Below, one piece after another: positions 581 to 28,100 of a stretch of 28,687 nt of DNA (its first letter is position 1; each line of letters starts with the position of its first letter). Source of the DNA: a virus. Below the pieces are notes generated by a model. It saw only the letters and a program-made list of their open reading frames with translations, had not been told where the DNA came from and ran no database searches. The stretch is from IMG/VR virus record IMGVR_UViG_3300007722_000079, positions 1 to 28,687 of that record; one strand, 5' to 3'. A program made the position numbers and the translations under genes.

Positions 581-599
581 ACGAGGTAAAAATTGAATG
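581..599 (+). promoter_or_regulatory. Shine-Dalgarno-like GAGG before the helicase start
   Basis: GAGGT at 583-587 lies about 10 bases before ATG 597. It is one of the few purine-rich SD-like sites in the window and supports 597 as the start. An earlier ATG at 579 reads only two codons before TAA. Confidence 0.4.
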
Positions 600-2033
600 G
601 CAAAAATAAATAAAGATACATTAGAATACCTTGGGAATGATTATCAATATAGGTTGATAGCTCAAATATTATCGGATTCAAAATTTGGTAACTCTATAAT
701 TGATATTGTAGACCCAAATTATTTTCAAGAACCATATTTAAGGGTTGTTGCCGCTATAATAAAAGAAGCTAAGGAAAAAGATGATATCATTCCAGACATT
801 GGTGGTCTTAGAATTCGTATTCTTGATGATGTGTCAAATGACATGCAACAAAAGTATGCTATTAGAGAATTAGAGAAGATAAGTCAAGCTAGTTTACAAG
901 ATACTTTCAAAGTTCAAGATATTGCTATGAAATTTTGTAAGCAACAAGAATTAAAAAAATCTATCAAAGAAATCCAAAGTATTATTGATAAGGGTGATAT
1001 TAATGACTATGATGAATGTGAAGCTATTTTAAAGAAAGCACTTGAATACGGCCACGTAAAAGACGAGGGTATGGATATCTTTGATAATATCAAAGATGTG
1101 TTACGTGAAGATTTTAGAAACCCAATTAGAACAGGTATTAATGGTTTAGATGAATACATGGATGGTGGTTTATCTAAAGGTGAGTTAGCTGTTATCTTAG
1201 CACCTTTTGGTACTGGTAAAACCACGATGATAACCAAAATAGCTAACACAGCTATGAACGATGGTTATAAAGTACTTCAAATATTTTTCGAAGATAACCC
1301 AAAAGTTATTCAACGAAAACACTTGGCTTGTTGGAGTGGTATTGAATTGAATTCTTTATCGCAACACCAAGCAGAAGTTTTCGAGTTATGTCAAGAAAAA
1401 ATGTCATTACCTAAAGAAGGTAAAGGTATTCTTAAGCTTAAAAAATTCCCAAGTGATGGTACTACAATACCAATGATTCGACAATATATTAGAAAACTAA
1501 TAGCACAAGGTTTTAAACCAGATATTGTTTTATTAGATTATATTGATTGTGTACAACCATCAAAAACTTTTGCTGATGCAAACATTGGTGAAGGAAGTGT
1601 TATGAGACAATTTGAATCGATGTTGGATGAGCTGGATATGGCTGGTTGGACTGCGATTCAAGGTAATAGAAGTTCGATAGGTGCAGCGGTTGTTGAAGCC
1701 AATCAAATTGGAGGTTCTATTAAAAAGGGTCAAATTGGCCACTTTATTGTTTCAATAGCAAAAACGTTAGACCAAAAAGAAGATGGAACCGCTACCATGG
1801 CAATTCTTAAATCAAGATTTGGTAAAGATGGGGTTATTTTTGAAGATATAACTTTTGATAACGCTAAAATACAAATAGATATGGGTCAAAGTAGAGGTCC
1901 TAGAACAAGAGGTGAATTTAAACAAGACATTAAAGAATCAAATCAAGCAAGAGTTAATTCGGTTCTAGATGCAATGAAAAATAGAAAAGAAACTTTAATT
2001 TCCGAAGTTCCTAAAGAAACTGATAATCTCTAA
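597..2033 (+). CDS. replicative DNA helicase, DnaB/T4 gp41-like
   Basis: A 478-residue hexameric-helicase protein, close in length to T4 gp41. It would unwind the phage fork 5'-3' using ATP and work with a primase. The RecA-like core starts near residue 178 ([14 protein letters not shown]). Walker A is APFGTGKTT at 202-210 (Lys208, Thr209). The catalytic Glu is Glu232 in FFEDNP, Walker B is VLLDYID with Asp314, motif H4 has Gln355 in QGNRSS, and the arginine-finger motif is KSRFG with Arg407. Residues 1-155 are a helical N-terminal domain as in DnaB/gp41. It has no intein, although gp41-type helicases are a known split-intein target. It ends 22 bases before nrdB and probably shares its transcript. 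Family confidence is high; DnaB versus gp41 naming is less sure. Confidence 0.93.
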
Positions 2034-2055
2034 TAATTATATTAAACAATTAAAA

Positions 2056-3009
2056 ATGTACGAACCAATTTTAACACCAAATGAAGACAGATTTGTTATA
2101 TTTCCGATTCAACACCAAGATTTATGGGCCTATTATGACCTAGTTAAAGAGGCTATGTGGACAGAAAAAGAAATTGACTTATCTAAAGATTTAGACCACT
2201 GGAATAATAAGCTAACTGATAACGAAAGGTTTTTTATTAAAAACGTTTTAGCATTCTTTGCGGCTTCTGATGGAATTGTAAACGAAAACTTAGCTGAAAA
2301 TTTTTTAAAAGAAGTTCAATATACTGAAGCAAAATTTTTCTATGGTTTCCAAATTATGATGGAAAACATACATAGTCATATGTACTCATTGTTAATTGAC
2401 ACATATATCAAAGATACCAAAGAAAGAAATGAGTGTTTTAAAGCTATTGAGTTTATGGCACCAGTAAAGAAAAAAGCTGAGTGGGCCTTGAAATGGATTG
2501 AATCTGAATCTTTTGCTGAAAGACTAGTTGCTTTTGCTGCTGTTGAGGGTATATTTTTCTCTGGGTCTTTTTGTAGTATTTTTTATCTTAAGTCAAGAGG
2601 TTTAATGCCTGGACTTTGTGATAGTAATGCCTTTATTTCTAGGGACGAAGCTTTACATTGTGATTTTGCTATTCATTTATTGAACAACCATATTGTTCAT
2701 AAACCATCATCAGAAAGAATTAGAGAAATTCTTTTATCGGCTTTAGAAATTGAAAAAGAATTCATCACTGAATCTTTACCTGTTTCACTTATTGGGATGA
2801 ATTCAGAATTAATGAAACAATATCTGGAATTTGTTGTTGACGGTTTATTACATCAATTAGAATGTGAAAAAGAATTCAACACTAAAAACCCGTTTGATTT
2901 TATGAATCAAATCGCTTTAAAAACAAAACAAAACTTTTTTGAGGGTCGTTCAACAGAATATAAATCAGCTGATTTAAGTGGTGCGATATCGTTCGATGAG
3001 GAAATTTAA
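2056..3009 (+). CDS. nrdB: ribonucleoside-diphosphate reductase, small (beta) subunit
   Basis: A 317-residue class I RNR R2 protein. It carries the metal cofactor and radical used by NrdA to reduce ribonucleoside diphosphates to deoxyribonucleotides. All six expected metal ligands are visible: Asp72 (ASDGIV), Glu103 and His106 (ENIH), Glu164 (AAVEG), Glu198 and His201 (SRDEALHCD). The radical tyrosine position is Tyr110 (HSHMY). The sequence resembles the eukaryotic-type R2 ([15 protein letters not shown]) more than E. coli NrdB. The C-terminal tail is acidic (SFDEEI), as needed for docking to the large subunit. The gene is uninterrupted, in contrast with nrdA, and precedes nrdA by 13 bases; nrdB-before-nrdA is the reverse of T4. 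Confidence 0.97.
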
Positions 3010-3022
3010 TAAAATATAAAAT

Positions 3023-5167
3023 ATGAAAATAACGAAAAGAAACGGTAGTAAAATTGATTTCAACCCAAATAAAATTTTAACTAGAATAAAAAAACAATCC
3101 GAAGGGTTAAAAGTAAATGCGGATGAGGTGTTCATTAAAGTAACACAAGGTATAGCTGATGAAATGACAACGAATGAATTAGATGATTTGATTTCAGTGG
3201 TTTCCGAATCGTTGGCGATGAATCATCCAGATTATTCAAAATTAGCTGCGAATATATCAATTTCAAAACTTCATAAAGAAACAGAGGATTCTTTCATGAA
3301 AGCAACTAAAAAATTATACAACGCTGGGTTGTTAAACAATTTTTATTATAATAAGGTAAAAGAGAATATTGAATTGATTGAATCAGTGATTAATTATAAG
3401 AGAGATTTTCATTTTGATTATTTTGGTTGGTCTTCATTGAAAAATATTTACTTGTTAAAACTAAAAGATGGTGTTATAATTGAAAGACCTCAACATATGT
3501 ATGTTAGGGTCGCGCTTATGGTGACAAATACACCAGAAGATTTTATTGAAAAATACAATGATTTGAGTTTCCAGAGAGAAAGCCCAGCAACACCACTTAA
3601 AATGAATGTTGGGACAAATATAGGTCAAATCGCTTCATGTAATTTATCCATAGTTACCGATGATTCAACAGAAGGGTTACTAGATATTTTAGGAAGAATA
3701 GCTATTTCTTCATCAAAGGCTGAGGGTATTGGATTAGCTGTATCTAATATTCGTTCAAAAGAAAATAACGTAGGGAATTCAGATGGTAAAGCTGGTGGCG
3801 TTTTAAAATATCTTAAGGTTGTTAACGAAACACTTAGATTTTGGAACCAACGAGGTAAAAGACCAGGTTCAGCCGCTGTCTACATCGAACCATGGCACAA
3901 AGATATTTTTGATGTCCTAGATATGAGGAAAAAAACAGGTGATGAAACACTTAGAGCTCGTGATTTATTTTCAGCTCTTTGGATTTCTGATAATTTCATG
4001 AAAGCTGTAGAAACGAATGGTGATTGGTATCTATTTTGCCCTCACGACATCAAATCAGCTGGTTTAAAGCCTTTTTACGAGATTTATGGTGCTGAGTTCG
4101 AAAAAGAATATAATTTGGCCGTAGAAATGGGTTTAGGGGTTAAAATAAAAGCACATGACTTGTGGATAAAAATTATTGAATCACAAATTGAAACAGGTAT
4201 GCCTTACATGTGTTTTAAGGACCACAGTAATAGTAAATCAAACCAAAAAAACATGGGTATGATTCATTCTAGTAATTTGTGTGCTGAAATTATGGAAGTA
4301 ACTGATTATGAAACTACTGCGATATGTACTCTTACTAGTATTCCAGTTCAAAAATTTGTAATAGATAAAAAATATAGTTTCTTTGAGTTAGGTAGGGTAA
4401 CCCGTTCAATAACAAAGTCATTAAATATTGCTATTGAAATTAACGATTACTCAACACCAGAAGGTAGGAAAGGTGGGTTAGAGCAAAGAGCTTTAGGAAT
4501 AGGCATTCAAGGTTTGGCTGATGTGTTTGCTATGTTAAGACTTCCATTTGTTTCAGAAGAAGCTAGAACTCTTAACAGAAATATTTTTGAGACGATATAT
4601 TATAATGCTTTAAGACAGTCATGTGATTTGGCTAAAGAATCTGGTGAAACATATTCTGGTTATGAAGGTTCTCCTATATCTCAAGGTATCTTCCAGTGGG
4701 AAATGTGGGGGATAACAGAAGATAAGTTATCTGGTATGTATGATTGGAATGAATTACGAGAAGATATATTAAAATATGGTGTTAGAAATTCATTAACAAC
4801 ATGTTGTCCCCCAACAGCGAGTTGTCAAGTTATTGACACTAGGATTCACACTGAAAATGGTGTGAAATCATTTAAAGATATGCTAAAAGAAAATGATATT
4901 AATTGGGAATCATTAGAGGGTACTAACATACAACAATGGATAACCCTAAAACCATTTAATGTAAAAACAACTGATGGTTATGAAGAAGTTAATAAGATAA
5001 AATATAATGGATATTCTACAGTATATCAAATTGAAATGGAAGATGGTTCTATTTTTGAAGCAACATCAAACCATAAATTCAAAGTAAAAAGAAATGATAA
5101 AGAAATATGGGTTGAGGTTAGTGATTTAACCACCACGGACGATATATTAAATATTTTTGAAAAATAG
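3023..5167 (+). CDS. nrdA: ribonucleotide reductase large subunit, N-terminal part fused to N-intein
   Basis: A 714-residue product: residues 1-600 are the N-extein of class I NrdA and 601-714 an intein fragment. An ATP-cone-like domain opens the protein (KRNGSKIDFNPNKI). Catalytic residues are present: Cys206 (ASCNLSI), Asn418, Cys420 and Glu422 (SNLCAEI), and Cys435 (AICTL). The NrdA sequence runs up to the active-site loop CCPPTAS (594-600) and then changes abruptly to CQVIDTRIHTENG, a typical intein block A. This half lacks the C-terminal barrel strand, the radical-transfer tyrosines and the tail cysteines, so it cannot work alone. It needs the product of 6271-6879, joined by trans-splicing. 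The gene ends with TAG, 45 bases before the endonuclease gene. Confidence in both identity and split is high. Confidence 0.96.
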   Translation: MKITKRNGSKIDFNPNKILTRIKKQSEGLKVNADEVFIKVTQGIADEMTTNELDDLISVVSESLAMNHPDYSKLAANISISKLHKETEDSFMKATKKLYNAGLLNNFYYNKVKENIELIESVINYKRDFHFDYFGWSSLKNIYLLKLKDGVIIERPQHMYVRVALMVTNTPEDFIEKYNDLSFQRESPATPLKMNVGTNIGQIASCNLSIVTDDSTEGLLDILGRIAISSSKAEGIGLAVSNIRSKENNVGNSDGKAGGVLKYLKVVNETLRFWNQRGKRPGSAAVYIEPWHKDIFDVLDMRKKTGDETLRARDLFSALWISDNFMKAVETNGDWYLFCPHDIKSAGLKPFYEIYGAEFEKEYNLAVEMGLGVKIKAHDLWIKIIESQIETGMPYMCFKDHSNSKSNQKNMGMIHSSNLCAEIMEVTDYETTAICTLTSIPVQKFVIDKKYSFFELGRVTRSITKSLNIAIEINDYSTPEGRKGGLEQRALGIGIQGLADVFAMLRLPFVSEEARTLNRNIFETIYYNALRQSCDLAKESGETYSGYEGSPISQGIFQWEMWGITEDKLSGMYDWNELREDILKYGVRNSLTTCCPPTASCQVIDTRIHTENGVKSFKDMLKENDINWESLEGTNIQQWITLKPFNVKTTDGYEEVNKIKYNGYSTVYQIEMEDGSIFEATSNHKFKVKRNDKEIWVEVSDLTTTDDILNIFEK
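4823..5164 (+). other. N-terminal half of a split intein (114 residues)
   Basis: The first residue is Cys601 of the preceding product, the splicing nucleophile, in CQVIDTRIHTENG (block A). Block B is near intein residues 79-88, with the TxxH motif in EATSNHKF (Thr81, His84). The fragment ends after VSDLTTTDDILNIFEK, about where Hint domains are cut in natural split inteins. It has no endonuclease domain and no blocks F/G; those are encoded at 6271-6375. Confidence 0.93.
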
Positions 5168-5212
5168 TTGGTGGTTTATCGGTTTGGTTGGTATTTATAG
5201 CTAAAGAAAATT
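5168..5212 (+). other. spacer between nrdA-N and endonuclease gene
   Basis: A 45-base gap with several GGTTTGGTTGG-like T/G repeats and an A-rich run before ATG 5213. No intron-like structure, terminator or clear SD is visible, so transcription from nrdA-N probably continues into the endonuclease gene. Confidence 0.4.
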
Positions 5213-6274
5213 ATGAAAAATTTACCAACCAAACCATCACCATTCAAAATTGAGTATTGGTTAAAAAAAGGTTTTAGTAACGATGAATCTATTGAAAAAG
5301 TCAGGATACATAGGTTAAAATGTATTAGAACTTTAGAGTCATTTATTTATAACCATGGAGAGATAAACGGGTTATTAAAATTTAAAGAATTTTGTGATAA
5401 AAGTAAACATACGTTAGAAAGTTTTATGAAAAAATATGGTAAGGAAGATGGTAAATTAAAGTGGGATGCTTATTTAAAAACTAAAGATTCGAATAGTGAA
5501 AAATGGGCCTTAAAGAAATCAAATGGTGATGTTTATAAAGCTAATGAAATTTTAAAAGAACGTAAAAAAAATGTTATTGTGACGTTAGATAAATTAATAA
5601 TAAAATATAATGATATTGAATTAGCTAAAGAAAAATTAAAAGATATAAATAAAAGAAAAGATAGTTCATCTCTAAAATATTTTATAAAAAAAACAAACGG
5701 GGATTTAAAATTAGCTACTATATTATATAAAGAACGCTCATTAAAAAAAGATTGTATGAGTATTAATTTTTTCCTTAAAAAGACAAACGGGGATTTAAAA
5801 TTAGCTAAAGACTTACAAGTTAGTGAGTTAAACAGAAGAAATATTAGTTTTTGTATAGCATCTAAAGAATCTTTAGTTTATTTTATACCACTATATAAAT
5901 ATTTACGTAAAAATGGTTTTAAGCGAAGTGACATATTTTTAGGTGTTAATGGTTCATATGAATATAAGTTACACGATGTTGATAAAAATATAACGTTCTC
6001 TTATGATTTTACAGTCCCATCATTAGGTTTAATTATCGAATATCATGGTGAAAAATTTCATCCAAATATCAAAAAATATGGTGTTAATAAATTAAGGGAA
6101 AATAGATGGGGTAAACACTTTAGATTAGATTTAGATAAAAGCATCTTAAAAGACAAAACTAAAAAAGAATTAGCTATAACAAATAACTTTGAATATATTG
6201 AGTTATGGTCATCTGATTCAGAAGAAATAAATAAAGAGAAAATAATTAAATTTTTAAAAATAAATAAGTTATGA
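5213..6274 (+). CDS. free-standing homing endonuclease, Vsr/DUF559-like, inside split nrdA
   Basis: A 353-residue Lys-rich protein. Residues 10-32 (FKIEYWLKKGFSNDESIEKV) look like the small N-terminal DNA-binding module seen in phage homing endonucleases. Residues 40-210 are about six imperfect ~30-residue repeats (TLESFIYNHGEINGLLKF, TLESFMKKYGKEDGKLKW, KKTNGDLKLA twice), probably DNA-contacting. The C-terminal 215-349 part has the nuclease core: Asp265 in YDFTVP, then LGLIIEYHGEKFH with Glu276, His278 and His283, the Vsr/DUF559 style of PD-(D/E)xK fold. Such enzymes (EDxHD family) are known within split-intein fractured phage genes. It should cut intein-free nrdA alleles and spread itself. 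Its stop overlaps the start of nrdA-C (ATGA). The nuclease family is inferred from motif shape; the homing role comes mainly from position. Confidence 0.85.
   Translation: MKNLPTKPSPFKIEYWLKKGFSNDESIEKVRIHRLKCIRTLESFIYNHGEINGLLKFKEFCDKSKHTLESFMKKYGKEDGKLKWDAYLKTKDSNSEKWALKKSNGDVYKANEILKERKKNVIVTLDKLIIKYNDIELAKEKLKDINKRKDSSSLKYFIKKTNGDLKLATILYKERSLKKDCMSINFFLKKTNGDLKLAKDLQVSELNRRNISFCIASKESLVYFIPLYKYLRKNGFKRSDIFLGVNGSYEYKLHDVDKNITFSYDFTVPSLGLIIEYHGEKFHPNIKKYGVNKLRENRWGKHFRLDLDKSILKDKTKKELAITNNFEYIELWSSDSEEINKEKIIKFLKINKL
5693..5807 (+). repeat. 25-bp direct repeat within endonuclease gene
   Basis: A 25-base stretch encoding TNGDLKLA is identical at 5693-5717 and 5783-5807, exactly 90 bases (30 codons) apart. 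It marks a recent duplication of one DNA-binding repeat unit. Confidence 0.85.
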
Positions 6275-6375
6275 AAATAAAAACTATAATTAAGGGTGAT
6301 ATAAAACCTACTTGGGATATTGAGGTTCCTAATGTTAATCATTATATCATGGAAAATGGGTGTGTAAGTCATAAT
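6271..6375 (+). other. C-terminal half of a split intein (35 residues)
   Basis: Block F is DIEVPNVNHYIMENG and block G is NGCVSHN followed by Ser. The penultimate His34, terminal Asn35 and +1 Ser36 nucleophile are all present, as expected for an active Hint splicing domain. The 35-residue length is usual for natural split C-inteins. Confidence 0.94.
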
Positions 6376-6879
6376 TCAGCTCGTGTTATTGGTTCAAACG
6401 AAGCTTTTGAACCGTTCACATCTAATTTATATGTTAGAAGAGTAACTGGTGGTGAATTTGCTATGGTAAACAAACATTTAGTTAGGGAATTGGAAAACGA
6501 GGGGTTATGGAATAGAGAGATGTTAAATGAATTAATTAAAAACGATGGTAGTGTTCAAAATATTCCATCAATAAGTCAAGAATTAAAAGATATTTTTAAA
6601 ACAGTTTGGGAAATATCACAAAAATCTCTTATTGAAATGTCTGCTGAAAGAGGTCCGTTCATCGACCAATCACAGAGTCTAAATATTTTCTTTCAAACAC
6701 CAACTGTCGGTAAATTAACAACATCACATATGTTGGGGTGGAAATTAGGTTTAAAAACAGGTCAATATTATTTGAGAAGTCAACCAGTTGAAATGAAGTC
6801 TAAACACTTGGCTATTGATTTAACAACAAAACAAAAATCGATAGATAGTCAATTCGAATGTTTCGGTTGTTCTTCGTAG
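6271..6879 (+). CDS. nrdA: ribonucleotide reductase large subunit, C-intein fused to C-terminal part
   Basis: A 202-residue product: residues 1-35 are a C-intein and 36-202 the last part of NrdA (SARVIGSNEAFEPFTSNLYV). After splicing, residue n becomes n+565 in a 767-residue enzyme, within the normal class I size range. Tyr166/Tyr167 in QYYLRSQP become Tyr731/732, equivalent to the E. coli radical-transfer pair 730/731. The C-terminal tail ends CFGCSS with Cys197 and Cys200, the pair that re-reduces the active site. The ATG overlaps the endonuclease stop by four bases (ATGA), so its translation is probably coupled to the endonuclease. It could not function alone. A strong terminator follows 44 bases downstream. 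Confidence 0.96.
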   Translation: MKIKTIIKGDIKPTWDIEVPNVNHYIMENGCVSHNSARVIGSNEAFEPFTSNLYVRRVTGGEFAMVNKHLVRELENEGLWNREMLNELIKNDGSVQNIPSISQELKDIFKTVWEISQKSLIEMSAERGPFIDQSQSLNIFFQTPTVGKLTTSHMLGWKLGLKTGQYYLRSQPVEMKSKHLAIDLTTKQKSIDSQFECFGCSS

Positions 6880-6923
6880 TCACAACTGAGATTACACCAC
6901 GTTATAGTATAAGTTAAATATTC

Positions 6924-6947
6924 AAAGGCCCTAATAGGGCCTTTTTT
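6924..6947 (+). terminator. intrinsic terminator after nrdA
   Basis: A nine-pair stem AAAGGCCCT/AGGGCCTTT with loop AAT leads into a T run ending at 6947. It closes the helicase-nrdB-nrdA unit and separates it from the virion gene block. Confidence 0.9.
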
Positions 6948-7041
6948 ATTTGCGTATTTACTTACAAAAATAGTTTAGTACCATATTTATGTAAAAATAA
7001 AGAATATAAAACTTTTATATTCAAAACTAAAACAGAAAACT
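6948..7041 (+). promoter_or_regulatory. AT-rich leader of the virion gene block
   Basis: Non-coding and strongly AT-rich, between the terminator and the gp25-like gene, ending in an A-rich run before ATG 7042. A promoter for the baseplate genes is expected here by position, but I see no sequence I can name as one with confidence. Confidence 0.35.
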
Positions 7042-7428
7042 ATGGCTAATGGTCGTTTTATAAACATAAACTACCCCTTCAAAGATAGTAAACAAGGTTT
7101 TTTTATCGATTTAAACGCTGATGATAAATCAGCGATAAAAGCTGACCTCATGCATTTAATCCTAACTATTAAAGGTCAAAGATTGTATAACCCAGATTTT
7201 GGTACAAATTTAATGAGGTTTATTTTTGAACCAAGTGACGGTTTCACATTTGAAAAAATAAAAGAAGAAATAACTACTCAAGTAAAAAAATACTTACCAA
7301 ACCTAGATATAACAGTTATATCTGTTGAGCAATCAACGGAAAATGATTATGCTGCGGTTTTAAGACTTGATTATACAATAACAGATGATGTGTTTACGAC
7401 ATCAGATTTCGTAATAATAAACATTTAA
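7042..7428 (+). CDS. baseplate wedge protein, gp25-like
   Basis: A 128-residue protein of the GPW/gp25 family (T4 gp25 is 132 residues), the inner-wedge protein that starts sheath attachment and assembles with gp6-type proteins. Family signature: a central KADLMHLILTIKGQRLYNPDFGTNLMRF segment around residues 33-60, where the loop ending in PDFGTNL is the conserved hallmark, then amphipathic helix FEKIKEEITTQVKKYLP and a C-terminal beta hairpin (DYAAVLRLDYTI). It is the first gene after the nrdA terminator, with only one base between its stop and the next ATG, and is followed by its usual assembly partner. Confidence 0.9.
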   Translation: MANGRFININYPFKDSKQGFFIDLNADDKSAIKADLMHLILTIKGQRLYNPDFGTNLMRFIFEPSDGFTFEKIKEEITTQVKKYLPNLDITVISVEQSTENDYAAVLRLDYTITDDVFTTSDFVIINI

Positions 7429-7429
7429 T

Positions 7430-9250
7430 ATGGCAAATACAGGTATAAACTACACGTCACGTAATTTCGCAGATATAAGAACTGACTTAATAAATATGGT
7501 TAAGAAATATTATCCAGATATTTTTAACGACTATAATGATGCATCTGTTGGTATGATGCTTTTAGAATTAAATGCTGGTGTTGGAGATATGTTGTCACTC
7601 AATACAGATAGAATGTTTCAAGAAACACAAATAGATTATGCTCAAGAAAGAAGTTCTATATTATCTATGGCTAGAACATTTGGTTTAAAAATCCCAGGAA
7701 AAAGACCAAGTGTAAGCATCGTAGATTTTTCGGTAATAATACCACCACTAGGTGATACTTTCGATATTTCTTATTGCCCAATTATAAGAGCTGGTTCTCA
7801 AGTAACTGGTGCTGGAAAAGTTTTTGAAACATCAAACGATATCGATTTCAGTGACCCATTTACAACAGGTGGGATACCAAATAGATTAGTTATACCTAAC
7901 TTTAACGCCAATAGTATACTATTAAACTATACAATAACAAAAAGAGAAATCGTTATTAACGGATTTACAAAGATATTCAAAAGAGTTATTACTTCAAGTG
8001 ACATAAAACCATTTTTAGAAATAATATTACCAGATAATAACGTTATATCGGTTGATTCTATCATTAGTTTAGAAGGAACCAACTTTACACAAATACCCTC
8101 AGCTGATAATTTTATTAATTCATCAATAAGATGGTATGAAATGGATGCTTTGGCTGAAAGCCAAGTTTTTATCCAAGATAATTTTACCATTAGTGACAAT
8201 GCTGGTATAAAACCAGGAAAATGGATAACAACAACTAAAAAATTCATTAGAGAATATACAGATTTAGGTTTTACCAAATTAATTTTAGGTGGTGGTAGTC
8301 AAGACATAAGCAGTTTATGTGATTTCGGCTCTAATAAAGCATTGGTTAATCAAATAGGTGATTTTATTAATAACATGTCACTAGGTGAAACACCAACAGC
8401 AAATACATCCATGTTTATTAAATATAGAGTTGGTGGGGGTGCTGATACAAATTTGGGTACTGGTGTATTAACAAATTTAGGTACCGTAGATATGTCGGTT
8501 AATGGATTAAATGTTGCGATAAATAATGCTGTTAAAGCTTCTTTGGTTGTAAACAATAATTTCCCAGCTTTGGGTGGTAGAAATGAACCAAGCGTTGAGG
8601 AAGTTAGGAATTTAGTTCGTTATAATTTCTCATCACAAAATAGATGCGTATTAATTAAGGATTATCAAGCTAGAATTAGTTTGATGCCTGGAGAATTTGG
8701 TGTACCTTTTAGATGTGGGGTGTTTGAAAACCAAAATAAGATTCAAATTTATATTTTAGGGTTAAATGCTGATACAAAACTTGATAACTCATCAACTAGT
8801 ACCCTAAGAGATAATATAGCTAATTATTTATCTGATTATAGAATGTTAAATGACTATGTTTTTGTCACAAACGGAAAGGTTATTAACCTTGCTTTTGAAA
8901 TTGATGTGTATATCGATAAGAAAAGCCCTAAGTCACAAATAATAAGTCAAATAATTACTGATGTTCAGACTTATATGAACATAAATAAATTTCAAATGGG
9001 TGAAAATGTTTATTTATCACCATTGGTTGAAACAATAAATAATGTTGGTGGTGTTTTAAACGTAATCGATGTGAGAATCTTCAATAAAGTAGGAGATGGT
9101 TATAGTTTAAATGAAATATCTCAACCATATTTAGATGCGACAACTAGACAAGTAGATATTTCTTTTGACTACACACTTTACGGTGACCCGATAAGTATGT
9201 TTGAAATCAAATTCCCTAATGTGGATATCAAGGTTAGAGTTAAAGGGTAA
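7430..9250 (+). CDS. baseplate wedge protein, gp6 / baseplate J-like
   Basis: A 606-residue protein of the gp6/J class that forms the ring around the central hub of contractile tails. The N-terminus (NYTSRNFADIRTDLINMVKK, then NDASVGMMLLELNAGVGDML) has the J-like pattern of an initial helix, an acidic turn and a long helix with LLELNA. A mid-region beta-rich stretch is followed near residues 383-425 by PSVEEVRNLVRYNF...VLIKDYQARI, the conserved EVR/DY core of the family, and the C-terminal part has repeated alpha/beta units (INLAFEIDVYIDKKSP). It lies one base downstream of the gp25-like gene, which supports the call. Exact equivalence to T4 gp6 is inferred. Confidence 0.86.
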   Translation: MANTGINYTSRNFADIRTDLINMVKKYYPDIFNDYNDASVGMMLLELNAGVGDMLSLNTDRMFQETQIDYAQERSSILSMARTFGLKIPGKRPSVSIVDFSVIIPPLGDTFDISYCPIIRAGSQVTGAGKVFETSNDIDFSDPFTTGGIPNRLVIPNFNANSILLNYTITKREIVINGFTKIFKRVITSSDIKPFLEIILPDNNVISVDSIISLEGTNFTQIPSADNFINSSIRWYEMDALAESQVFIQDNFTISDNAGIKPGKWITTTKKFIREYTDLGFTKLILGGGSQDISSLCDFGSNKALVNQIGDFINNMSLGETPTANTSMFIKYRVGGGADTNLGTGVLTNLGTVDMSVNGLNVAINNAVKASLVVNNNFPALGGRNEPSVEEVRNLVRYNFSSQNRCVLIKDYQARISLMPGEFGVPFRCGVFENQNKIQIYILGLNADTKLDNSSTSTLRDNIANYLSDYRMLNDYVFVTNGKVINLAFEIDVYIDKKSPKSQIISQIITDVQTYMNINKFQMGENVYLSPLVETINNVGGVLNVIDVRIFNKVGDGYSLNEISQPYLDATTRQVDISFDYTLYGDPISMFEIKFPNVDIKVRVKG

Positions 9251-9276
9251 GGTTTCCTTATACCGTTAAAACCTTA
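9248..9276 (+). repeat. inverted repeat between gp6-like and next gene
   Basis: TAAGGTTT and AAACCTTA form an eight-pair AT-rich stem around a 13-base loop, starting at the TAA stop. No T run follows directly, so it is at best a weak terminator or an mRNA processing/stability element. Confidence 0.35.
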
Positions 9277-9296
9277 TATTTAATAAAAATTTTAAT

Positions 9297-9599
9297 ATGA
9301 GCTGCGATTGTAAAAACGAAACTGTTAATAAAACAGAAATCAAGTCAACAAAGACAATAAGTAATTATATATTGAAAACAATAATTTTCTTATTGTTTTT
9401 GGTTATTTTACCAATAGTTGTTGTTGCGATAATATGGATAGTATTTAAAATGTTAGTTTTAAGTGAATCAATTGATATAAAATCTATTTTGATGTCTCTA
9501 TATGGTAAAATAAAAAAGACGCAAGACGATGATGATGAAGTATCTGAAGACGACTTATATATGGTGGATGTTGAGGATATAACAAATAAGAAATTTTAA
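9297..9599 (+). CDS. small single-pass membrane protein of unknown function
   Basis: A 100-residue protein with three parts. The short N-terminus has two cysteines (MSCDCKNE). One very hydrophobic segment lies at about residues 25-54 (TIIFLLFLVILPIVVVAIIW and on). The polar C-terminus has an acidic run (TQDDDDEVSEDDLYMVDVED). There is no signal-peptidase or lipobox site. It lies in the baseplate block, 46 bases after the gp6-like gene and 3 bases before the next, so it is expressed with virion genes. Holin, spanin part, or a membrane-contacting virion protein are possible. Nothing distinguishes these, and the middle of a baseplate operon would be unusual for lysis genes. Confidence 0.8.
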   Translation: MSCDCKNETVNKTEIKSTKTISNYILKTIIFLLFLVILPIVVVAIIWIVFKMLVLSESIDIKSILMSLYGKIKKTQDDDDEVSEDDLYMVDVEDITNKKF

Positions 9600-23700: not shown

Positions 23701-24817
23701 ACAAAGCTCAGGATTTGACTATTTTTCAATGGATAAATTTGCTAATTTAGTTGGTGATTATTGGGTTGATATTATTGAACAAGTTATTCCATCTACAACA
23801 ATTTGGGGTAGTGTTAAAATATATTCAAACAATATATTCGACCAACAAAAATTCAAATATAAAACTCACTCAACTTTATTGTGTGAAAACCCTTTCTTGG
23901 GTGTTTTAGTACCAAGCCCAATTAATTGGACCATTGGTCAAACACAATTTGTTGATGTTTCAATAACAAAACTACAAACACCTTTTGAAAACAATGTAAA
24001 AATTGTTTACGAATCACCAACAATATGTAACGAATTACATGTTGTACAAATGAACTTTGGTTCTGAATTTATTGGGACTGTTAATGTTGTAGATTCAAAC
24101 ACTTATTTATGTGAAACACAAACATCAGTAATAACTGAGTGTTTCTTAACTGCATCAATATCATTAACTGGTTTTAGTGCGTCAGCAATTGTTATCGGAG
24201 CTAATGGCCCGATAAATTATCTTTGGAGCAACGGAGATACCAACCCAACAACTACATTTAGTAGTTTAGGTGTTTATTCTTTAGAGGTTACAGACGATAG
24301 TTGTTGTTCTTACATAGTGTCGTTTGAAATTCCAACACTTAAAGCTTGTTGGTATTCATTACCTGATACTATTAGTTGGTTAGAAAATGGTTTCAATGTG
24401 TTTGGTGTACCAAGCTATATCTATACATTAGAGTCTATGGTTATTAACGGTACTGAACAAATGATTGGTACCCCACCAAGTTATACGTTAACTAGTGATA
24501 TTTTAAACACCTTCTCAACTCCAACTGGCCCATCATATACCAACTTTGTTGAGTTTTTAAACAACGCATTTGTTGAGTTAGGTTTGATAAATTACAGGGC
24601 CCAAATTTCATTATATAATACTGAAAACCCTTTTGATGACAACGAGTATAAAGGTTTCTATATAGTTAGACCAGAAGTAGATATCTTTAATTTGTATATT
24701 GGTGAAATTGGTAATGTCGATACTATATTTACTGAAAGTGGTTTAGGGAATTTCCCAGCTTATAGGTTTAGTAATTGTGCTGGAATAAGATTAACAAATG
24801 GAATCGTTAATGAATAA
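20765..24817 (+). CDS. very large cysteine-rich multidomain virion protein
   Basis: A 1350-residue protein with about 40 cysteines, many in pairs (PCC, YCDPCYQC, SCCGD, SCCSY). The N-terminal 120 residues repeat the CC...C.W style seen at the end of the previous protein. Two coiled-coil-like segments lie near residues 142-172 (ISDLQITIEQKNVEC) and 302-338. A triple FQD motif is at 619-639. Residues 718-848 look like a PA14/carbohydrate-binding-type beta domain (SKCIELPTSGVYSIGLAADN, HWRIFEVTLSGGTNVIEMEG). Residues about 998-1039 (DYWVDIIEQVIPSTTIWGSV) and an Ig/PKD-like unit near 1117-1190 follow. It probably forms a receptor-contacting tail or baseplate appendage. The next gene starts in its stop codon. 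Confidence 0.82.
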   Translation: MATVNQCYSSSDISTLGGVINQNQDGSVSVFIPNNQGNLIPVILTKPCCLGLNSSYTFDVFNQKCRWSTSTTNCGLDDVFKIILNPEGNDGTIFNFNSDKDCVLNVEFDFLFKIKCETLNQILIDGANLDYSNIAPELVSQISDLQITIEQKNVECQGISNQIVLLNEQILNSSYSIACDLEDETSTPPTSGKVISFGETGFGLTTDLGSGKLGSNTTGRSSGLITNAGLSTIYCIQEPDGLLAWANILGPINYQNFLNGDLDSYSCSQVQELVLLNTSVINNGGQPLLIICETPLGGKTNLISQLDILLISQINCQTQLDVLIFNLGVLQDNLSTELSNSCIRPIDMFESLNVSMIVEVLSGATYETVYEDVDFFPVIGFGLLYNYLFQNEPSGFYVCGDSNCVPMFLNAEGQEQSNTNICNNVVNSLYNSLYEESNLSGVTNGSAIFPTTISNSAFTSTWLQYQTTIEDESILSLLNDNKIKIGLKINNTCGDICILLDNIKLNKICTTVKERKLFVTSSPGFELDKIRDNKKSWVRNDTLVNRNFEILNANSFNPIRQTNYNVEDDRLVINTKEIDLDISLASAIVTDVWCYLVDNPCLLTGYTYCDPCYQCSYKQFQDFECVEFQDDIPYEFQDGDTNFGGGNLVVFQNSNICQYINTISATTYGSFDTAYTGSISSSYGILGTLFYKSGLTGNLPYTQYSSGISDSTNVIVSENILVNTGTLWGNGRLNNAGIWATAGAANPNLPTNEWIGFSKCIELPTSGVYSIGLAADNRVKLKINGELFYFANDGLISTNFTHWRIFEVTLSGGTNVIEMEGYNDNSNASFAAEIYQADINTLAAMTGTTQLSGVTIFTTRDFRYETNGNIPIEFDLGETSGYSCPTGYFLNTCVLPYTCDQIIYSACPPTVSVSCCGDNQIKFDNLLSQPLSGITVIEDFEYYISSELIDAKNRQTISSYPTLRALYERYMNSSAYCGTQSSGFDYFSMDKFANLVGDYWVDIIEQVIPSTTIWGSVKIYSNNIFDQQKFKYKTHSTLLCENPFLGVLVPSPINWTIGQTQFVDVSITKLQTPFENNVKIVYESPTICNELHVVQMNFGSEFIGTVNVVDSNTYLCETQTSVITECFLTASISLTGFSASAIVIGANGPINYLWSNGDTNPTTTFSSLGVYSLEVTDDSCCSYIVSFEIPTLKACWYSLPDTISWLENGFNVFGVPSYIYTLESMVINGTEQMIGTPPSYTLTSDILNTFSTPTGPSYTNFVEFLNNAFVELGLINYRAQISLYNTENPFDDNEYKGFYIVRPEVDIFNLYIGEIGNVDTIFTESGLGNFPAYRFSNCAGIRLTNGIVNE

Positions 24818-25161
24818 TGGAAAAGATAATTAGAAAAAACAGAGAACGAGAGAATAGAGGTGTTTTAAAAGATTTTTTTGATTTACCGATTTCAATACAA
24901 AACGATTTTTTTGTCATCAAAAAAACTTTTCAGGAAGAATTTGGTGATAGCTTAAATCTATGTGTTTTTGGTAGTTTTTATTGGGGCTTTTGGGATGATT
25001 TATCAGATTATGATTTAAAAATTGATTACGTATTCAACAATTTTAAACCAGATTCAAGAATTGAAAAAATAAAAGAAATAAAAGAAAAACTAGCTGAAAT
25101 ACTAAATAAAAAAATTGATGTGTTAATAATGCGTGGTGATAACGGAATTTTAATTCCTTAG
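24817..25161 (+). CDS. minimal nucleotidyltransferase (MNT) domain protein
   Basis: A 114-residue protein. It has the exact GS-x10-DxD nucleotidyltransferase signature (Gly52, Ser53, Asp64, Asp66 in GSFYWGFWDDLSDYD) and a third acidic residue at Asp101 (KKIDVLIMR), the catalytic triad of the Pol-beta/MNT superfamily. Residues 1-40 are a helical lead-in. Such small proteins transfer a nucleotide to a protein or small molecule; in bacteria they often neutralise HEPN RNase toxins. No HEPN partner is visible here. The ATG overlaps the stop of the 1350-residue virion gene (TAATG) and a putative promoter follows. It could be an accessory (anti-defence) gene or modify a virion or host protein; the real substrate is unknown. 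Confidence 0.85.
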   Translation: MEKIIRKNRERENRGVLKDFFDLPISIQNDFFVIKKTFQEEFGDSLNLCVFGSFYWGFWDDLSDYDLKIDYVFNNFKPDSRIEKIKEIKEKLAEILNKKIDVLIMRGDNGILIP

Positions 25162-25168
25162 CTATATT

Positions 25169-25176
25169 TATAAATA
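25169..25176 (+). promoter_or_regulatory. TATAAATA, T4-late-promoter-like box
   Basis: An exact TATAAATA lies 9 bases before the fibre-gene ATG, in a short intergenic gap. This is the T4 late-promoter -10 consensus. The same octamer also occurs by chance inside coding sequence (14697-14704), so it is only suggestive, and here the start of transcription would fall at or inside the start codon. Confidence 0.2.
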
Positions 25177-25184
25177 AAAAGAAA

Positions 25185-28100
25185 ATGATTTTAACTAGCA
25201 GAGAAATTTATTCAGGTGCAAGTCGTTACGACTTAATTCATATTGTTGTAACTGGAGATACAACTCAAAACCCAAGCGGTAGTTCTTTTGCTATCCCTAT
25301 TGGTTTTATTATAGATTTAATACCACCAAACACTGGAACTACACTCCCAGATACTTATTGGGTATCAGGTTCTACTGGTGTTAATTCACTAAAAACAATA
25401 AATGATACATCGATAGATGCCACGGGTGATTATTCATTAGCCGAAGGTAGTAACACAACAGCGATTGGTATGTCAAGTCATGCTGAAGGTAATAGCACAA
25501 CAGCGGGTGGTATCAACAGCCACGCTGAGGGTGATAGAACAACAGCTAGTGGTAACTCAAGTCATGCTGAAGGTAATTTATCGGTAGCGATTGGTGATGC
25601 AAGCCATGCTGAAGGTTTTGCAACAAGAGCAAGCGGTGTTGGTAGCCATGCTCAAGGTTTTTCAACAATAGCTTCAGGTTCATCAAGTCATGCTGAAGGT
25701 ACGAACACAAGAGCAATTGGAATTGCTAGTCATGCTGAAGGTAACCATACAATAGCGAGTGGTGACAATAGTCATGCTGAAGGTGATAGAACAATAGCTA
25801 GTGGTGATTACAGTCACTCTGAAGGTAGTAATACAGATGCTTTAGGTAGGGCAAGTCATACTGAAGGTGCCAACACAATAGCTGGTGGTGATTATAGTCA
25901 TGCTGGTGGTATTAGTTCTATTGCAAGTGGTAACACTAGTTTTGTACACGGTAGTGGTAGTACAGCTGTTGGTAATGGAACTATTGTTTTGGGTGATAAC
26001 ATAATAGGAAACACCCCAAATACAACTTATGTTAATTTATTAAATATAAAGGAATTGGCTAGTGGTTCTAGTATAATTAATTTGGGGTTAGATATAAATG
26101 GATATGTGGTAGTTGGCTCAAGTGGTGGTACCTCAACTGGTAGTACAACATTTAGTGGTGGTACTATTAATGGCCCAACTATTTTCACAAATGGTCTAAC
26201 TGCAAACACATTTAGCGCGACAACATACTTAGGTTTGCCTCTGGATATAATGGTTACAGGTGGTACATATTCGGCTGGAACAGCCGTGTTTACTAACAAT
26301 ACAGGTGGTACCTTTGACGTTGCTGGATTTAGTACTGGTGGAACCTCATATTGGACATCTGGTTCAACTGGTAATTTCTCTTTGAAAACAATAAATGATA
26401 CATCGGTAGATGCTACAGGTAATTATGCGTTAGCTGAAGGTCGCGCTACGTTAGCTTCTGGTCCTATTAGTCATGCTGAAGGTAATAGTACACTAGCTTC
26501 TGGTCAATCAAGTCATGCTGAAGGTCAAGAAACAACAGCTAGTGGTTTAGCAAGTCACGCTGAAGGTGGTAACACAACAGCTATTGGTGTTACAAGTCAC
26601 GCTGAAGGTCAGCTAACTATAGCCCAAGGTGATGGAAGTCATGCTGAAGGTAGTGGTACAACAGCGAGTGGTAATTTTAGTCATGCTGAAGGTAATTTTA
26701 CAGTAGCCTCTGGGACAAGTAGTCATGCTGAAGGTCTTAACACAAGAGCTGGTGGTATAAGAAGCCATGCTGAAGGTAATAGTACAACAGCTAGTGGTAT
26801 TAATAGCCACGCAGAAGGTGGTGGTTCAATAGCCTCTAATTTTAACTCCCACGCTGAAGGTGGCGACACGACAGCGAGTGGTATAGCAAGTCATACCGAA
26901 GGTGTTTTTACAGTAGCGTCTGGGATAAATAGTCATGCTGAAGGTTCGGGTACAACAGCTAGTAGTTTTCAATCACATGCTGGTGGTTGGGGGTCAATTG
27001 CTTCAGGGACAAATAGTTTCGTCCATGGAAGTGGTTCAACGGCTAGTGGTGATAATAGTTTTGCGGAAGGTAATACTACAACAGCTAGCGGTATTAATAG
27101 TCATGCAGAAGGTCAACTAACTATAGCGACTGGCACCACAAGTCATGCGGAAGGGCTTTTAACACTAGCAACTAATCAAGCAAGCCACGCTGAAGGTACA
27201 GCAACAACATCTAGTGGGCAATCAAGCCACTCTGAAGGTCAATCTACAACAGCAAGTGGTAATTTTTCACACGCTGAAGGTAATTTGAGTATAGCTAGTG
27301 GTACGTCAAGCCATGCAGAAGGTAATAGAACAGTAGCTTCTGGGTTAAGAAGTCACTCTGAGGGACAACAATCAACAGCGAGTGGTTTAATAGCCCACGC
27401 TGAAGGTTTTACAACAACAGCAAGTGGTGATTACAGTCACTCTGAAGGTGGTTTTACATTAGCTTTTGGTCCTTTTAGTCATGCTGAAGGTAGTAGCACA
27501 ACAGCAAGTGGTGACAATAGTCACGCTGAAGGTGATGGTACTATAGCTAGTGGTAATTACAGTCATACTGAAGGTTTTTCAACAATAGCGAGTGGTAATA
27601 CATCTCATGCTGAAGGTAATACTACAACAGCGGGTGGTGATTTTAGTCATGCTGAAGGTAATTTTACAGTAGCTTCAGGTGCGTCAAGTCATGCTGAAGG
27701 TCAAGAATCAACAGCTAGTGGTCCTTTCAGCCATGCTGAAGGTGCTAACACAACAGCAAATGCTCAAGCAAGTCATGCTGAAGGTCAAGTCACGGTAGCT
27801 AGTGGCGATTACAGTCATGCTGAAGGTAATTTTACAGTAGCCTCTGGGACAAGTAGTCATGCTGAAGGTCTTAATACAATAGCAGGTGGTATAAGAAGTC
27901 ATGCTGAAGGTACTAGTACAACAGCTAGTGGTACTAATAGCCACACAGAAGGTAGTGGTACAACAGCTAGTGGTATATCAAGTCATGCCCAAGGTAACCA
28001 TACAATAGCTTCTGGTAATTTTAGTCACGCTGAAGGTCAATCTACTATAGCAAATGGTGATTTTACCCACGCTGAAGGTAATGCTACAATAGCTAGTGGT

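Follow-up and report, generated by a model that had tools for sequence, protein, structure and literature searches.

A probable mobile split-intein element in a phage nrdA gene, with a predicted hairpin over the start of its endonuclease gene

How can a phage use an nrdA gene that is broken in two, and how might the endonuclease gene lying between the halves be kept quiet? This question is raised by positions 3,023 to 6,879 of the IMG/VR virus record IMGVR_UViG_3300007722_000079, which has 28,687 bases and is referred to below, at its full length, as the window. The locus holds three open reading frames (ORFs): 3023-5167 (714 amino acids, aa), 5213-6274 (353 aa), and 6271-6879 (202 aa), with 45 nucleotides (nt) between the first and the second. 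A preliminary description had read them as nrdA fractured by a split intein with an inserted endonuclease, and the ORFs, intein profiles, and relatives described here agree with that. We consider the best explanation of the whole to be a mobile split-intein element in nrdA, with NrdA restored by trans-splicing and an endonuclease timed by a hairpin, and put its probability at about 0.8 (Table 1).

The NrdA N-half ends in ...PPTAS (residue 600), after which Cys601 opens the N-intein; at the other junction, His34-Asn35 of the C-half is followed by Ser36. The 114-aa N-intein half matches TIGR01445 at 34.6 bits (cut-off 24.5) and the C-intein half matches TIGR01443 at 22.7 bits (cut-off 15.6). Both halves thus lie above the curated NCBI cut-offs, and judged by these scores the matches are not due to chance. 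The Pfam model Intein_splicing (PF14890) gave 22.8 bits, below its gathering score of 35.8, as a half-intein may. The N-intein alone found only weak matches among solved structures, and a profile search of the genome contigs with the N-intein alignment gave no confirmed match. Class 1 inteins splice by means of Cys1, the block B motif TxxH, a final His-Asn, and Cys, Ser, or Thr at +1. All of these features are present (Cys1, block B TxxH, terminal His-Asn, Ser at +1): C1, T81, N83, and H84 of the N-intein are invariant in seven aligned homologues, and the splicing residues are invariant across the seven N-halves and eight C-halves aligned. Between the window and its relative L014, the ratio of nonsynonymous to synonymous substitution rates (dN/dS) was 0.107 for the NrdA N-part, 0.233 for the N-intein, 0.212 for the endonuclease, 0.128 for the C-intein, and 0.122 for the NrdA C-part. 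Because the splicing residues are conserved and selection is purifying, we infer that NrdA is trans-spliced. The two halves would be made as separate proteins, meet via their intein halves, and be joined through Cys601, Asn35 of the C-half, and the +1 Ser to give a class Ia reductase subunit of 767 residues. This length (600 + 167), recomputed, is correct, as is the position that the preliminary description gave for Tyr731/732.

The locus recurs in three other IMG/VR contigs, matching L002/L012 and L003/L013 at 100% and L004, which covers the endonuclease and C-half only, at 99-100%; it is therefore no assembly accident of a single record.

Table 1. Features at and next to the broken nrdA gene (window positions; a slash marks an insertion point).
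Feature	Position	Strand	Basis or remark
DnaB/gp41-like helicase, context gene	597..2033	+	unbroken at GNR/SSIG
nrdB, intact, partner gene upstream	2056..3009	+	PF00268, E=1.2e-103
nrdA N-extein, residues 1-600 (ATP cone, all-alpha, and barrel domains)	3023..4822	+	PF03477, PF00317, PF02867
N-intein half, 114 aa from Cys601, stop TAG	4823..5167	+	TIGR01445
Predicted hairpin around the endonuclease start	5170..5241	+	inner arms 5181-5193 / 5223-5235, outer arms 5170-5175 / 5236-5241
TATTTATA element, inside the 5' side of the hairpin	5192..5199	+	21 nt upstream of the endonuclease ATG
Vsr-like / EDxHD-type endonuclease gene, 353 aa	5213..6274	+	AlphaFold model, VIA-align
C-intein half, 35 aa, ends His-Asn	6271..6375	+	TIGR01443, 22.7 bits
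nrdA C-extein, residues 601-767, Ser (+1) first, CFGCSS last	6376..6879	+	PF02867, E=3.1e-41

The interposed endonuclease had been described as Vsr-like, and fold comparison bears this out. An AlphaFold model built from 18 sequences (mean predicted local distance difference test score 79.5, predicted template modelling score 0.43) has about seven two-helix repeats, followed by a mixed nuclease domain from about residue 217. In VIA-align, the top two rows for this domain were Vsr (1cw0; Z 9.0, 115 residues, 3.6 Å) and the catalytic domain of I-Bth0305I (3r3p; Z 9.0, 95 residues, 2.8 Å). Foldseek alone was weak (E 0.18 and 0.86), and a best VIA-align Z of 7 to 8 is common even without a true match, so the telling point is that Vsr and a homing endonuclease stand together at the top. 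On the model, then, the nuclease domain is closest to Vsr and I-Bth0305I. D265 and H283 are invariant and D314 is conserved in at least 90% of the 18 aligned endonucleases, while E250 is invariant in seven rows and falls below 90% in the 18; the assignment of these residues to the EDxHD motif is our own. DUF559 and MTES_1575 each match six of the 18 aligned relatives but not the window endonuclease, for which a sequence search against solved structures gave no match of note.

To place this element among its kind, we surveyed split-intein loci with iterated profiles over 300 sequences, which yielded 132 clean split elements; since the loci were picked by searching for such elements, the counts say nothing on natural frequency. 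An ORF of at least 110 aa lies between the halves in 97 of the 132, on the host strand in 97 of 97. These ORFs form 52 clusters at 60% identity and nine linked families; that of the window holds 27 clusters, and a family containing GIY-YIG members holds 14. The other 35 elements, some of them near-duplicates, have no ORF of at least 110 aa, and in 27 of them the gap is up to 200 nt.

The start of the window endonuclease is predicted to be closed by a hairpin. Positions 5160-5260 fold with a minimum free energy of -28.7 kcal/mol (z -4.17), and the corresponding regions of L014 and L006 fold similarly with different letters (z -3.19 and -2.51); in L064, where the endonuclease copy is decayed, the start is not folded (z 0.54). 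In a four-row alignment, the 13-pair helix is paired in 90.4% of cells, compared with 29-44% when slid. Five pairs are changed on both sides, a number reached by 15 of 500 shuffles, and none of the 500 reached the covariation score. Because L014 and L006 share one version of the hairpin, this alignment is in essence a comparison of two intact versions and one decayed version.

Across the survey, with one endonuclease taken per cluster, the 52 start windows have a mean z of -2.35; 28 lie at z<-2 and 19 below -3, versus none of 51 C-intein starts at z<-2 (paired p 1e-7). The unpaired probability near the start is likewise lower for endonucleases than for C-inteins (0.38 vs 0.62, p 8e-9). As C-intein starts often closely follow the endonuclease, a second control used genes with 30-80 nt of non-coding sequence upstream: 26 of 41 endonucleases and 11 of 77 other genes, a few of which may themselves be endonucleases as judged by their first residues, fell at z<-2 (p 5e-9). 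All of these p-values are optimistic, since the endonuclease clusters are not fully independent.

Within the hairpin lies the putatively promoter-like element TATTTATA. It occurs upstream of 16 of 52 endonucleases (shuffle mean 1.3, maximum 5) and one of 51 C-inteins, and TATTTAT is found near 24 of the 52 endonuclease starts. Counted over different stretches, TATTTAT precedes the baseplate gene gp25 in 33 of 37, gp6 in 10 of 41, nrdB in 0 of 46, and nrdA in 0 of 83, and its spacings from the ATG are concentrated at 21-22 nt ahead of endonucleases and at 22 nt ahead of gp25. Among window ORFs of at least 120 aa, it lies 18-26 nt ahead of just two, the endonuclease and one at 25185. The latter is tail-fibre-like, contains SHAEG repeats, and seemingly runs off the window end, with TATTTATA 20 nt ahead of it (25165-25185). 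The T4 late promoter element is TATAAATA. As a candidate promoter here it was rejected, being present upstream of 10 of 52 endonucleases (shuffle mean 1.3) compared with 16 of 52 for TATTTATA, and not at all there in the window.

Such an arrangement would time the endonuclease. In the nrdA message, the predicted hairpin encloses the endonuclease start, so little endonuclease should be made from that transcript; the element inside the hairpin would start a shorter transcript that lacks the 5' arm, and the start would be freed. When the RNA was cut at a transcript start assumed to lie 13 nt past the element start, start accessibility rose from 0.31 to 0.63 in 20 cases, compared with 0.64 to 0.76 for C-inteins and 0.39 to 0.56 for endonucleases without the element. 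We infer this timing partly by analogy. For I-TevI, I-TevII, I-TevIII, segB, and Aeh1 mobE, a hairpin closes the start in the longer message and the promoter is so placed that late transcripts lack it, and T4 gene 25 is among the late genes controlled by such structures (PMC2988022). The analogy is drawn with I-TevI and mobE, with an endonuclease start region closed in a longer message, as is predicted here. The window endonuclease differs from such intron-encoded or free-standing T4-type genes in that it sits in a split intein, and in that its element is TATTTATA and not TATAAATA. If correct, this would explain, in a form that can be tested, how a selfish nuclease stays silent within an important gene.

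Several observations weigh against this timing. The start is not strongly folded in 24 of the 52 endonucleases (z<-2 missed), including those of the cultured phages PTm1 (-0.94) and phiKp_21 (-0.40), and three of 52 mid-endonuclease and eight of 52 mid-N-intein controls fall below z -2. TATTTAT also lies upstream of the helicase (26 of 38) and of 22 of 77 control genes (vs 23 of 41 endonucleases), so it need not be late-specific, and the transcript start used above is itself an assumption. The endonuclease stop overlaps the C-intein ATG (ATGA, 6271-6274), which suggests translational coupling of the two and sits uneasily with a silent endonuclease. Finally, the opposite strand gives much the same folding z (-2.26 vs -2.16), so folding alone cannot separate an RNA hairpin from a DNA palindrome. 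Instead of a translation switch, the structure could then be a DNA site bound by the nuclease, an operator, or a terminator of weak strength; PMC2988022 describes I-TevI as also binding an operator over its own promoter. We regard this as less likely than not, given the position at the start codon and the unpaired probability below that of C-intein starts, and no run of U follows the hairpin in the window.

We next consider whether the element moves. Among the first 85 loci, duplicates included, site 600 is unbroken in 59, split in 21, and uninformative in five, and the window NrdA N-part is 79-88% identical to those of loci L015-L063. For an NrdA tree, 76 loci were taken, of which 65 had all parts, giving 47 different rows. 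The six different split rows require five changes on this tree, and the five rows nearest the window are all unbroken, with a highest identity of 89%. A point against reading descent or movement from the tree is that clustering of the split label is no better than chance (92 of 500 shuffles were as low); the label is therefore scatter, not pattern. L064 and L065 are 93.7-97.6% identical over aligned stretches (97.6% over 4,392 bases), yet the helicase is split and nrdA is broken at site 600 in L064 but not in L065, with boundaries exactly between codons. L069 and L070 share 98.8% and 97.3% identity on either side of a GIY-YIG gene, located at a second split site at residue 420, that is present in L070 only. 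The clearest sign of recent transfer is the site-420 N-intein, for which synonymous divergence (dS) between L064 and L069 is 0.000, while dS is 0.952 for the middle part and 1.233 for the C part of their NrdA, and 0.78-1.68 over the NrdA middle and C parts and site-600 intein halves. Based on the exact presence/absence pairs and the scattered distribution, the endonuclease would cut the unbroken nrdA of co-infecting phages, and the whole stretch would be copied in. Such loci supply natural before/after pairs for the birth and decay of fractured genes.

The second split intein lies at N418-L419-C420 (window numbering) in L064, L065, L066, L069, and L070, and, based on its flanking motif, in L010, L106, and L112. 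C420 corresponds to the radical (catalytic) cysteine of E. coli NrdA. The L064 gene between the site-420 halves is of GIY-YIG type (PF22945, E=3.4e-12), and its counterparts in L065 and L070 share 99% and 74% identity with it. At the helicase site, GNR/SSIG is intact in the window and split in L064. L064 thus carries three different split inteins within 991-9346 (helicase, NrdA 420, and NrdA 600), whose N-halves are 26-32% and C-halves 41-55% identical to one another; its helicase is encoded in two pieces and its NrdA in three, while nrdB between them stays intact. L069 has all three split inteins and no endonuclease gene of at least 110 aa. These are candidate sets of split inteins obliged to work side by side in one cell. 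The insertion points can lie one codon apart (L064:6258, NL/CSEIM; L066:6261, NLC/SEIM), with N-halves only 38% identical; these are perhaps separate insertions. A contiguous intein, LAGLIDADG-like by eye, lies at the NrdA Cys206 position in L074:5001-8016 (L075 is alike by match), a third insertion site within nrdA. L106:1460-4983 belongs to a separate NrdA lineage with a contiguous intein and two split sites, with no endonuclease between the halves of either.

The split can also outlast the endonuclease. At site 600, the gene is full in the window, L014, and L006 (up to the contig end), and its middle is deleted in L064, L007, and L008. It is gone in L066-L068, L080, and L069-L072, where 34-56 nt separate the N-intein from the C-intein and the reading frame changes across spacers that hold a stop and a new ATG. 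In L066, L069, L070, L106, and L107, nrdA is split at site 600 and lacks the endonuclease. Since the gene stays split after endonuclease decay or deletion, the phage would still depend on trans-splicing. Between L066 and L069, both without the endonuclease there, dN/dS is 0.246 for the site-600 N-intein and 0.235 for the C-intein, which indicates that purifying selection on these halves continues. Two points count against this: dS values are close to or above 1, near saturation, and the site-420 N-intein has a dN/dS of 0.728 between the same two loci, so constraint on that half is not clear between them. Altogether, the sequences of the relatives show signs of an element that moves, loses its nuclease while the gene stays broken, and breaks one gene twice. 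We lean slightly toward a broader statement: that Vsr-like and GIY-YIG endonucleases, at least, share start-codon hairpin control in split inteins, often with a built-in promoter-like element, and that the split outlasts the endonuclease, so that some phages would make a helicase in two and NrdA in three pieces by three distinct split inteins encoded close together.

Could the broken gene work without splicing? Aeromonas phage Aeh1 provides the precedent of an NrdA in pieces after mobE insertion, whose two polypeptides are reported to assemble non-covalently (PMC3653736, PMC2988022). That NrdA is split without an intein, unlike the one in the window, where Cys1, TxxH, His-Asn, and Ser +1 are present and conserved and would be needless without splicing; we thus find such assembly highly improbable here. 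Even less probable is that the halves are decayed relics in a phage that relies on another reductase. The relative L064 does have a clearly decayed endonuclease at site 600, but the frames are open and dN/dS is low in intein and extein parts alike, and two contigs of this phage, 68,135 and 51,877 bases long and perhaps incomplete, each hold one NrdA N-part and one C-part, although an intact copy may lie elsewhere. An origin from an intron, common in phage reductase genes (PMC3653736), has a negligible probability, given that the frames carry intein halves and that Rfam, applied to the window and six loci at gathering scores, gave no hit to an intron or any other RNA.

The core of the locus is of a known kind. 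Dassa et al. in 2009 reportedly described fractured genes in which the halves of a split intein in nrdA flank a free-standing Vsr-like endonuclease gene; the present locus comes with phage genome context, unbroken sister alleles, a start hairpin, and relatives that are twice split or lack the endonuclease, some of which that work may already contain. That the arrangement is known in principle is upheld by profile, fold, and relatives, whereas its presentation as an independent example holds only in part, as a family of the same element occupies the same site in other phages. Three findings go beyond the preliminary description: a hairpin at the start codon, a second split site among the relatives, and split forms without an endonuclease; the covarying hairpin and these relatives make the locus worth study. 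We found no publication on start hairpins of endonucleases in split inteins or on genes split twice in nature in a search that covered mainly titles and abstract openings, with Dassa et al. and most subscription papers outside it, plus passages of PMC3653736, PMC2988022, PMC7090010, PMC10448857, PMC3943268, PMC7765530, PMC4031507, and PMC3322345.

Related elements occur in cultured phages and ocean data. The "VSR endonuclease" of Tenacibaculum phage PTm1 (AP019524) is 29% identical over 65% of the window's and likewise lies in a gene annotated as intein-containing and split, but its host gene is a DNA polymerase and its start hairpin is not strong. In Klebsiella phage phiKp_21 (LC768485), nrdA is split by intein halves in the same loop, one codon earlier by our reading. 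Its endonuclease (L089:4341-5309) is HNH-like by eye with no Pfam match; its front part may resemble that of the window's, but the match (E=0.012 in a six-locus search) is not significant. Campylobacter phages PC14, CC_R7, and IBB_35 have an nrdA intein in the same loop, but contiguous, and a further split, at the NLC site, is present in CC_R7 and IBB_35; nrdA inteins of IBB_35 are reported in PMC3322345, and seven nrdA and two nrdJ genes interrupted by inteins in ocean data in PMC3653736. The gp41-1 split intein (PDB 6riz), from a host gene other than nrdA, is matched by the L064 helicase N-intein (E=7e-12) and only weakly by the window's own intein family (E=0.38).

In the window, the gene order runs from the DnaB/gp41-like helicase through nrdB and the broken nrdA to T4-type baseplate genes. 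Amid the tail genes, a small ORF (24817-25161) has a weak nucleotidyltransferase match (PHROG E=0.0085).

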